Assembly: GCA_005191415.1 (NCBI GenBank)
Contig: SUPS01000010.1
Coordinates: 1-33,060 of the forward strand
DNA: 33,060 nucleotides
From: Candidatus Helarchaeota ASGARD archaeon Hel_GB_A
Lineage (GTDB): Archaea > Asgardarchaeota > Lokiarchaeia > Helarchaeales > HEL-GB-A
Direction: 5' to 3'
Below the pieces are notes generated by a model, which was not told the DNA's origin, searched no databases, and saw only the letters and a list, made by a program, of their open reading frames with translations. The position numbers were made by a program, and so were the translations under genes. Below, in pieces: positions 13,370-17,726 of this stretch; positions within the stretch are counted from its first letter, which is position 1, and every line of letters starts with the position of its first letter.

Positions 13370-13564
13370 TCATCTCGTCTCATATTTTTATCGAATCTCA
13401 TCTAAAATGGATTTTAAATATCAGACTACGACTGATATTCTTTTAGGTCTTATTGAATCCATCAATTTTCTATCGATTCTTATTTTAAAAACATGAAAAG
13501 TGATATTTAAACATTTGCAAATAGATAGAAGAATAATTGATGAAAACTGCGGAATGATTAGAAA

Positions 13565-14551
13565 TTAAAGGAAAGGTTCCATGGATTTTATATATTCATC
13601 AGTAATAGATGTGACAATTTGACACTTTTTTACACATTCGAGGCACGCTTTTGGATCATAAAGGGCCGTTGTGCAGTATTTCTCACCCCCATCGGGTAAC
13701 AACACTACAATTACTCCAGAATCAAGTCCTTTGGCTTTTTCGACAGCGACATGCATAGCAGCTCCAGAGCTGATGCCGCTAAAGATACCTTCAAGCAAAG
13801 TTAGACGGCGAGCCATTTCCATGGCATCCTCATCCTTCACCTTTATTTTTTCATCAATTCGGGAGGGATCATAGATTTGGGGAACATATTGCACATCAAG
13901 GTTTTTCAGTCCTTGAATTTTTGAATGTGGATACGGTTCAACGGCAATCACTTTAATTTTTGGATTGAATTCTTTCAATCTTTTAGAAACACCCATTAAA
14001 GTTCCAGATGTTCCAATACCTGCCACGAACATGGTAATTTTTCCATTTGTATCTTCAATAATTTCCTTTCCAGTTGTTTCATAATGTGCAAGGACGTTGT
14101 ATTTATTTGCAAATTGATTAGGACGAAAATATTTGTCAGGGTTCGCTTTTATCAATTCATTACACATATCTTCTGCTCCATCCATCCCTCGATCTCCTTT
14201 GGTTAGAATAATTTTTGCACCGTAGGCTAAAAGCATTCGTCGTCGTTCCATACTCATGGTTTCGGGCATAACAATTTCTAAAGGATATCCTTTTTGAGCA
14301 CAAACCAGTGCAAGACCAATTCCAGTATTTCCGGAACTGGGTTCTATGACAGTTTTTCCTTTCGTGAGTAAACCCTCTTTCTCAGCCTGTTCAATCATGT
14401 AAAAAGCAATGCGATCTTTGACTGATCCTCCTGGATTGAATTTTTCTAACTTTGCATAGATCGTGACGTTCTTATTCGGATTAAGCCTGTTAATATGAAC
14501 CAACGGAGTGTGCCCAATCAATTCCAAGATAGAATTATACGGTTTTCCCAT
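13565..14551 (-). CDS. cysK: Cysteine synthase (PLP-dependent O-acetyl/phosphoserine sulfhydrylase)
   Basis: 'LIGHTPLVHINRLNP', 'FNPGGSVKDRIAFYMIEQAE', 'EPSSGNTGIGLALVCAQKGY', 'VAGIGTSGTLMGVSKRLKE', 'GISSGAA'; C-terminal Cys-rich tail. Confidence 0.93.
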   Translation of the reverse strand: MGKPYNSILELIGHTPLVHINRLNPNKNVTIYAKLEKFNPGGSVKDRIAFYMIEQAEKEGLLTKGKTVIEPSSGNTGIGLALVCAQKGYPLEIVMPETMSMERRRMLLAYGAKIILTKGDRGMDGAEDMCNELIKANPDKYFRPNQFANKYNVLAHYETTGKEIIEDTNGKITMFVAGIGTSGTLMGVSKRLKEFNPKIKVIAVEPYPHSKIQGLKNLDVQYVPQIYDPSRIDEKIKVKDEDAMEMARRLTLLEGIFSGISSGAAMHVAVEKAKGLDSGVIVVLLPDGGEKYCTTALYDPKACLECVKKCQIVTSITDEYIKSMEPFL

Positions 14552-15661: not shown

Positions 15662-16630
15662 TTACTGCAGTTTTAGAACTGTCAGCAAATCTGGAGTAAT
15701 TTTATTAATTTCCTGCTCATATTTATCAATAGAAACCCGATTTATGGGAGTAATTATGAAAATTGAAACATATTTATGAATATCTTTCAAGAGTAAATAT
15801 TCTTCATCAAATTTAAAGACAGTCGTGTTCAGATGTTTAGATTTTAAAAATCCATTTTTCCGAAATTCTTGGATTAATTGTTCTGCGATATTAAGGGGAT
15901 AAATAAGAGTTTTAATGCTGAGATATTGGAGAAAATCACTGGCTTCTTTAGTTATTAATTTAGCTTCGAGTTCAGGACTCATTGAAGATGTGATTTCAAG
16001 TCCATCGTCTTTATTGATAAGCATTGTCAATTTAGCATTTAGTTTTTTATTCACTTTATCGATTATTCTTTGAAGGTTTTTCATCCGCTCGGTTTCTGTC
16101 TTCTCGATCAGGTTATTTAAAATCCTGCAGAGGATTTTTCTAGCAGTTTTGGTTTTTACCGAGGATGTGTAATAAGTGACGCCTTGGATTGCATTACCTT
16201 CCGAGAAAAATTTTTTCAACTCATCCTTAGAAATTCTTGGTTTTAGGTCATATTTATGGGCGAGAACGTAAATTTTCACTTTTTTAGGAGAGAATTTTCG
16301 AAGTGAATTATAGGCTTGCTTAAACCAGAAGCGTGATTCGCCGAGTTTTTCTTTATCTGCCACATCCACGACCCAAATAAAGACTCGTGTATTTGAAAAA
16401 ATGGCGCGTTCCATCCTTTCAGAAAAATACCCTTCTAAAAATTGTTTTTGCCCTCCACAATCAAAGACGGATATCTCGATTAATCGTCTATAGCGATACT
16501 CATCGGTTTTTATGCCTTCCGTAGGTGGAAGACTTACTAATTCCTCAAATTCCTTACCTTCTAGTACATGGCGGATTAATGTTGTCTTTCCCGCCCCATT
16601 CAAGCCCATTAAAAGAATTTTTAATACCAT
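15662..16630 (-). CDS. Rag/Gtr-like small GTPase with C-terminal roadblock/longin-like extension
   Basis: G1 'LLMGLNGAGKTTLIRHV', G3 'FDCGGQKQFLEGYFSERMERAIFSNTRVFIWVVDV' and G4-like 'VLAHKYDL' resemble RagA/Gtr1 ('DCGGQ', 'HKMD'); ~140 aa extension containing 'LNAKLTMLINKDDGLEITSSM'. Confidence 0.85.
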   Translation of the reverse strand: MVLKILLMGLNGAGKTTLIRHVLEGKEFEELVSLPPTEGIKTDEYRYRRLIEISVFDCGGQKQFLEGYFSERMERAIFSNTRVFIWVVDVADKEKLGESRFWFKQAYNSLRKFSPKKVKIYVLAHKYDLKPRISKDELKKFFSEGNAIQGVTYYTSSVKTKTARKILCRILNNLIEKTETERMKNLQRIIDKVNKKLNAKLTMLINKDDGLEITSSMSPELEAKLITKEASDFLQYLSIKTLIYPLNIAEQLIQEFRKNGFLKSKHLNTTVFKFDEEYLLLKDIHKYVSIFIITPINRVSIDKYEQEINKITPDLLTVLKLQ

Positions 16631-16756
16631 TGTACTACCTCGACAATATTTAGAACCAATTTCTTTTAAAATTTAAGGAAGATAGATAAAATTACTAAAT
16701 AAATTAACCAAACTTGCTCTGGTTTAATAAAATTTTCACTTGCCTTATGTGATGCT

Positions 16757-17377
16757 ATGACGTTGGAATCGTTCTTCACGAAACTAAATCAGAATCTTGA
16801 GCGAGCTAGAGAAAATCTACGCACGCAATTATCGAAAAAAGTAAATTATTTAGTGGAGCATTTGGAAGAATACACGAGTACAGAAATTCGCGGGGAATTA
16901 GATAGGTTAGTTGATGATTTTCTGAACCAATTCACTTCTATTTATCAAGAATTTATTTCTTATATTGAAGATGAGATTCCAAATATTCCAAAACCTCAAA
17001 AAAAGACAAAACCAAAATCGAAAAAGAACAAAAAAGACACAAAAAAGAACGAGTTTGTCCGTCCTACTTATGTACACAGGGCTTTTAATGAAGCAGGACT
17101 ACGTGTCGCCAAAGAGGCGAGACCTCTTCTAATGGAATTATTAAATAAAAAGATAGAAGAAGACATAGAAAAAATTAAAAGGCAGTTACCTACTTTTCAA
17201 AAAGGAGAGAAAAAAGGTGAGAGGAAAAGAATCACTATTAAGCCAGAGGATCTCGCATCAGAAAATCTTCTAAAAGAACTTTCAGCAAAATTTGAAAAGG
17301 AGTTAGATACAATTCCATTAGACGTAAATGGCGGAGAGTTTAAATTATCAATCCTATTAAGGTACTTAAATCATTAA
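16757..17377 (+). CDS. Helical/coiled-coil protein with Lys-rich linker and histone-fold-like C-terminal region
   Basis: Charged helical N-term (aa 1-75), basic linker 'KPQKKTKPKSKKNKKDTKK', then 'YVHRAFNEAGLRVAKEARPLLMELLNKKIEEDIEKIKRQL...KRITIKPEDL', which matches the archaeal histone pattern. Confidence 0.6.
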   Translation: MTLESFFTKLNQNLERARENLRTQLSKKVNYLVEHLEEYTSTEIRGELDRLVDDFLNQFTSIYQEFISYIEDEIPNIPKPQKKTKPKSKKNKKDTKKNEFVRPTYVHRAFNEAGLRVAKEARPLLMELLNKKIEEDIEKIKRQLPTFQKGEKKGERKRITIKPEDLASENLLKELSAKFEKELDTIPLDVNGGEFKLSILLRYLNH

Positions 17378-17408: not shown

Positions 17409-17726
17409 TTATTCTTCGTCTTCTTCTTCGGGTTCTGGTTCTAATTTGACAGTTTCTGTGTGCACAATTTTCTTTGTTAGTGGGCTAATGACAAGGACAA
17501 GCTTCTCTTTCTCTAGCTCTTCGAGTTCAACAATCCATAGATTTTTCGGAGGTTCTTTTCCACTCGGGGCAACTGACGCCTTCGGGTGCTTTTTGATCCA
17601 CGCTTCAGTAGCTTTTGGCTTCATCTTCTCGACATTCCAGACACAATTCGGGTATTTCTTCTCAAACTTTTCAGCTTCATCCGAAGCTGCCGCTATTTCG
17701 ACCGCATCATCTTCTTTAAATGGCAT
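17409..17726 (-). CDS. Hypothetical protein with acidic C-terminal tail
   Basis: 105 aa ORF ending EPEPEEEDEE; convergent with the preceding gene; overlapping + ORF 17446-17760 has low-complexity Ser/Phe composition and is less plausible. Confidence 0.55.
   Translation of the reverse strand: MPFKEDDAVEIAAASDEAEKFEKKYPNCVWNVEKMKPKATEAWIKKHPKASVAPSGKEPPKNLWIVELEELEKEKLVLVISPLTKKIVHTETVKLEPEPEEEDEE

Follow-up and report, generated by a model that had tools for sequence, protein, structure and literature searches.

Loop-2-extended proteins with a probable histone fold in Asgard archaea: a family and a long member with a predicted N-terminal helical domain

Asgard archaea are relatives of the ancestor of complex cells, and their chromatin informs the origin of eukaryotic chromatin. 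The archaeal histones most relevant here are the alpha3 histones, which the main text of Schwab et al. 2024 (PMC11390915), a study that used InterPro and AlphaFold, describes as having an alpha3 helix of only 3-4 residues, an alpha2 helix shorter by 4-5 residues and a conserved RxTxxxxD motif. A helical extension that bridges DNA has a precedent, in the same account, in HMfC, which carries its helix at the C-terminus; that survey's main text reports no coiled-coil (CC) histone of this type from Asgard archaea, and none of its main-text categories has a loop-2 insertion or an N-terminal helical hairpin. A 2024 review (PMC10919886) states that conserved terminal helices, whether N- or C-terminal, are absent from Asgard histones. 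A 2026 survey of archaeal histones (PMC13260811) searched with PF00808 and PF00125 only.

The gene described here lies in a window (the whole stretch of DNA analysed, 33,060 nucleotides) from Candidatus Helarchaeota archaeon Hel_GB_A. It encodes a fused, long member of a highly divergent, mostly small and single-domain family with a likely histone fold.

The gene, its long-type orthologues and the domain family

An earlier reading of the window, made from the letters alone (the sequence-only reading), had described an atypical histone with a Lys-rich linker and a basic insertion ahead of a KRITIKPED motif. The ORF exists and reads exactly as quoted there, and both the linker and the basic stretch are present. 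The features of the locus are as follows (AF2 denotes predicted structure):

16757..17377, + strand: whole gene (ORF), 206 aa, ATG start, encoding the putative 'long-type' loop-2-extended histone-fold protein
16723..16732, + strand: possible archaeal TATA box, tttaataaaa, 24 bp 5' of the ATG (by eye)
16757..16984, + strand: acidic N-terminal domain, aa 1-76, with helices at 3-34 and 41-73 (AF2, hydrophobic periodicity)
16985..17053, + strand: Lys/Pro-rich linker, aa 77-99, net charge +9 (composition, low pLDDT)
17054..17266, + strand: histone-like domain, aa 100-170 (hhalign, AF2, Foldseek)
17063..17092, + strand: predicted alpha1, aa 103-112 (AF2 domain model)
17111..17185, + strand: predicted alpha2, aa 119-143, 25 residues, 4-5 below nucleosomal length (AF2 domain model)
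17186..17242, + strand: loop 2, basic and lengthened, aa 144-162; its consensus across the family is LPxxSKGxxKGELKRxTI, with P and G invariant
17228..17251, + strand: RxTxxxxD motif, R158-T160-D165, invariant in 21/21 aligned members
17243..17254, + strand: predicted truncated alpha3, aa 163-166, 4 residues (AF2 domain model)
17291..17374, + strand: conserved C-terminal tail, aa 179-206, FEKELDTIPLD..FKLSILLR, long type only (orthologue alignment)
15662-16630, - strand: Gtr1/RagA-type GTPase (Pfam PF04670, 3.6e-25), divergent from the histone-like gene across a 126 bp gap
17409-17726, - strand: protein of 105 aa that Pfam does not match, ending in an acidic tail; its gene and the histone-like gene converge

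The N-terminal domain has a net charge of -7 (pI 4.5) and the histone-like domain one of +5 (pI 9.8). The two N-terminal helices are predicted by AF2 with a pLDDT of about 70-84 and are amphipathic in the alignment profile, with a hydrophobic period of 3.75-3.8 (shuffle P 0.004 and 0.008). Because of this repeat, the predicted structure is better described as an amphipathic helical hairpin than as a classical coiled coil. The helical N-terminus of the sequence-only reading is retained; its coiled-coil label fits less well.

That reading had proposed searching Asgard genomes for orthologues of the same architecture, and there are three (G043, G159 and G161). They are 49-51% identical to the window protein and retain the start Met, N-terminal domain, linker, histone domain and C-terminal tail. 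Between the close pair G043/G159, dN/dS is 0.08 for the histone-like domain, 0.19 for the N-terminal domain and 0.57 for the linker, which is the fastest-evolving segment. Given the shared architecture and the low ratios for the two domains, the ORF is a real conserved protein. By these ratios the long type consists of two domains under constraint and, between them, a linker free to vary, and its four members (the window protein and the three orthologues) are under purifying selection.

Among 224 Asgard genomes, clear matches to the N-terminal domain are confined to these four proteins; further matches are marginal and mostly lie within long frames. A profile-profile comparison of this domain using hhalign gave no match. 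The long-type gene of the window shares no conserved neighbour with its counterparts in the other genomes, and the viral contigs scanned contain no relatives. AF2 models the full-length protein poorly (pLDDT 58, pTM 0.29), and a Foldseek search with this model returned nothing usable.

The histone-like domain is more widespread. Its profile matches 21/228 Asgard genomes, of which 20 belong to the window's class (20/83 genomes of that class) and one, a marginal match, lies outside. A typical member is a single-domain protein of 72-78 aa, so that what had been read as a single odd gene is real but is actually the fused form within a broader family. Invariant or near-invariant positions, completed with majority residues, give the consensus LPxxSKGxxKGELKRxTIxxxD. 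The window's own genome carries at least three family members together with four nucleosomal histones (PF00808). One of the former (G000:C275) belongs, with proteins of G002 and G003, to a second subtype with a Lys-rich C-terminal tail; loci of this subtype are L050 (1354-1731), L018 and L041. A tandem two-domain member, clipped by the contig start, is found at L047 1-540 (G142:C44) and is a candidate single-chain histone pseudo-dimer. Every homologue of this tandem protein aligned to its first domain.

Fold and class assignment

Database models recognise the domain poorly. Pfam, including PF00808, gives no match to the window protein, and none of the 21 family members passes any Pfam curated cut-off. 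PF00808 matches one of the 21 (E 0.84), and PF00125 none among the matches listed. For this reason the PF00808/PF00125-based survey (PMC13260811) would probably have missed the family; the dataset behind PMC11390915 may hold some members. The Pfam family matching most members is itself a histone fold, CENP-X (5/21, best 4.5e-4); CENP-S matches 2/21, and all of these are below cut-off. The NCBIfam archaeal histone model matches four members, also weakly and below cut-off.

Profile-profile comparison gives much stronger matches. In hhalign the family scored 35.2 against Asgard nucleosomal histones (P 3.5e-6) and 33.2 against alpha3 histones (P 6.5e-6). The best of 150 column shuffles per target (300 in total) reached 17.9, at most about half of the real scores, and reversed targets gave 8-14. 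The resemblance of residues ~101-170 to archaeal histones, previously noted by eye, is therefore above chance. In these alignments RxTxxxxD is in register and the loop-2 residues appear as an extra segment. Against PDB sequences, the top match of the domain profile was HLp, a DNA-binding histone of Leptospira perolatii (9qt0). The next matches were mostly histone folds (HmvA, archaeal histone A, 1f1e, HMfB, HBb, CENP-X and NF-YB), all of them, like the first, weak. Urate oxidase, AlkD and designed proteins also appeared among the weak sequence matches and were rejected for inconsistent register.

An AF2 model of the single-chain domain, run with family sequences only (21 rows), has an alpha1-alpha2-short-alpha3 layout, with helices of 10, 25 and 4 residues. 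The pLDDT is 81 overall and >90 from alpha1 into alpha2. In Foldseek, the TM scores of this model reached 0.60 to H3 and, target-normalised, 0.58 to HLp; histone folds form the majority among the matches listed, NF-Y chains leading them, and no match had E<0.001. Two GatC chains rank first and were rejected for poor superposition (rmsd about 14 A). Since the profile matches, the predicted layout and the Foldseek enrichment combine, a histone fold is likely for the domain.

The predicted 4-residue alpha3 and 25-residue alpha2 are the reason for placing the family closest to the alpha3-truncated histones and not to the HMf type. The features of the alpha3 class found here are the histone helix order and homology (hhalign, AF2), the predicted lengths of alpha3 and alpha2, and RxTxxxxD in all 21 aligned members. 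Assignment to the HMf type was rejected (predicted alpha3 of 4 residues against about 10, and no PF00808 match above the curated cut-off), as was assignment to the CC bridging histones (the helical domain is N-terminal rather than C-terminal to the fold) and to the Rab GTPase histones (no Pfam GTPase match in the window protein). The family alignments lack the Arg and the Asn (R41 and N45 of D4GZE0) that face-to-face (FtF) histones conserve where alpha2 ends and use for their dimer-dimer interface; the corresponding region reads LPxxSKGxxKGELKR. In a tree, the family branch (98/98) and the nucleosomal branch (100/100) are separated by the FtF histones, but this tree is based on 79 columns and serves as a guide only, and the loop-2 insertion may itself help to unite the family.

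Distribution and locus relative to FtF histones

The alpha3-histone profile matches 175/224 Asgard genomes, although some of the weak matches are nucleosomal histones. Among the 20 genera of the window's class, the family occurs in 11 and FtF histones in 12, with an overlap of 3 (P 0.0013); this count takes clear FtF matches only, the overlap is the minimum possible and the P value ignores phylogeny. The genus distributions of the two are almost mutually exclusive.

The two also share a locus. In seven FtF genomes (G005, G009, G013, G015, G020, G051 and G055), the FtF gene is preceded, at a distance of 3.6-6.3 kb, by a Sir2 gene of the same strand that is, in each genome, the closest match to the Sir2 of G016. 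An orthologous radical-SAM gene lies between Sir2 and the FtF gene in the four genomes examined in detail. In G016 and G026 (one genus), a short family member is found about 2.9 kb from Sir2, again with radical-SAM between. The order Sir2 - radical SAM - histone, the strand and the side are common to the FtF genomes and to these two. In G014, from another family-bearing genus, the Sir2/radical-SAM block persists but includes no histone gene; its family member is encoded elsewhere. The simplest reading is that family members diverged from, or replaced, FtF histones. Profile comparison, predicted fold, tree, synteny and distribution together support the description of the window protein as an atypical histone.

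The linkage of Sir2, radical SAM and an alpha3 histone (L103, L114, L126, L128, L099, L127) places a deacylase, a possible histone modifier, nearby. In the window's own genome, too, a nucleosomal histone gene and a Sir2 paralogue are about 5 kb apart (G000:C232:8340-8519 and 13457-14200). In G055, an FtF-like domain (G055:C10:404326-404508) is part of a 260-aa frame, a size that fits a Rab GTPase histone.

Possible function and comparison with known histones

We consider the window protein to be a fused loop-2-extended alpha3 histone which would form a DNA-binding dimer, with N-terminal helices that oligomerise or recruit a partner (probability about 0.6). In detail, the C-terminal domain would form a histone-fold dimer contacting DNA through alpha1, the L1 arginine (R116) and the RxTxxxxD L2 loop, and the basic loop-2 insertion would extend these contacts. 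Contacts between the L1 arginine and DNA are known from HMfB. The acidic N-terminal hairpin, on its flexible basic linker, would self-associate or dock a partner, and the DNA-bound dimer would thereby act as a bridge between two DNA segments or as a tether. Dimerisation, DNA binding and bridging or tethering are all inferred; the last, through the N-terminal helices, is plausible.

A histone-fold transcription or repair factor, pairing with another subunit (as do NF-YB/YC, TAFs and CENP-S/X) and using its N-terminal domain to recruit machinery at particular sites, is an unlikely alternative which nevertheless has several points in its favour: the CENP-X and CENP-S matches, the lead of NF-Y chains among the Foldseek histone matches and the presence of other histones in the genome for pairing. 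Every one of the Pfam matches is below the curated cut-off, however, the RxTxxxxD loop is intact in the long type, and short members are found at the FtF locus and in place of FtF histones, suggesting a general histone role. Less likely again is a histone-fold scaffold with little DNA binding (compare the Sos histone domain and the Loki Rab-GTPase histones), which would serve in contacts with proteins or membranes, the adjacent Rag-type GTPase being one possible partner. This would suit the acidic N-terminal domain, the divergently transcribed GTPase 126 bp away and the Rab-GTPase histones described from Lokiarchaeota in the main text of PMC11390915, but the orthologues in G043, G159 and G161 do not have the GTPase nearby, and the histone-like domain is basic with conserved DNA-loop residues.

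We think it very improbable that the domain has no histone fold and is some other three-helix basic protein of convergent resemblance. Although no database model exceeds its cut-off and the Foldseek E-values are weak, with GatC first, the shuffle-controlled hhalign scores, helix lengths, motif register, Foldseek histone enrichment and FtF synteny agree with one another.

A broader proposal, which we hold tentatively and at rather less than even odds, is that the loop-2-extended alpha3 histones are an undescribed Asgard family, unmatched by PF00808, that replaced FtF in many genera, and that the fused member, with its N-terminal oligomerisation or recruitment domain, is a DNA-bridging or tethering chromatin protein of topology opposite to the CC histones. 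If this is confirmed, the histone repertoire of the class has been undercounted, several lineages have exchanged their FtF histones for other ones, and there is a histone whose N-terminal helical domain is conserved.

With FtF and other alpha3-truncated histones (HTkC 9F2C, HLp 9QT0, HBb 8FVX/8CMP; PMC11390915; segments of HBb, HTkC and HLp taken from PDB alignments) the family has in common a short alpha1, a 25-residue alpha2, a 4-residue alpha3, RxTxxxxD, the alpha1 motif (F/Y)(V/I)(K/R)xSKV and the Sir2/radical-SAM locus. It differs in about 11 extra basic loop-2 residues, the L1 arginine and the lack of the FtF R...N, and the long type adds the N-terminal helical domain and the C-terminal tail. 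HMfA/HMfB (PF00808) have the same fold order, L1 arginine and RxTxxxxD register, whereas the family is without their 10-residue alpha3, has an extended loop 2 and is not matched by PF00808. The Rab GTPase and ZZ histones, in the main-text description of PMC11390915, are alpha3 histones with an N-terminal domain; that of the window protein is an acidic helical hairpin, neither a Rab GTPase nor a zinc finger. Finally, the CC histones (HMfC) and MJ1647 of Methanococcales, as presented in the same main text, combine the fold with a helical extension that potentially tetramerises and bridges DNA, but their helix is C-terminal, whereas the helical domain of the window protein is N-terminal.
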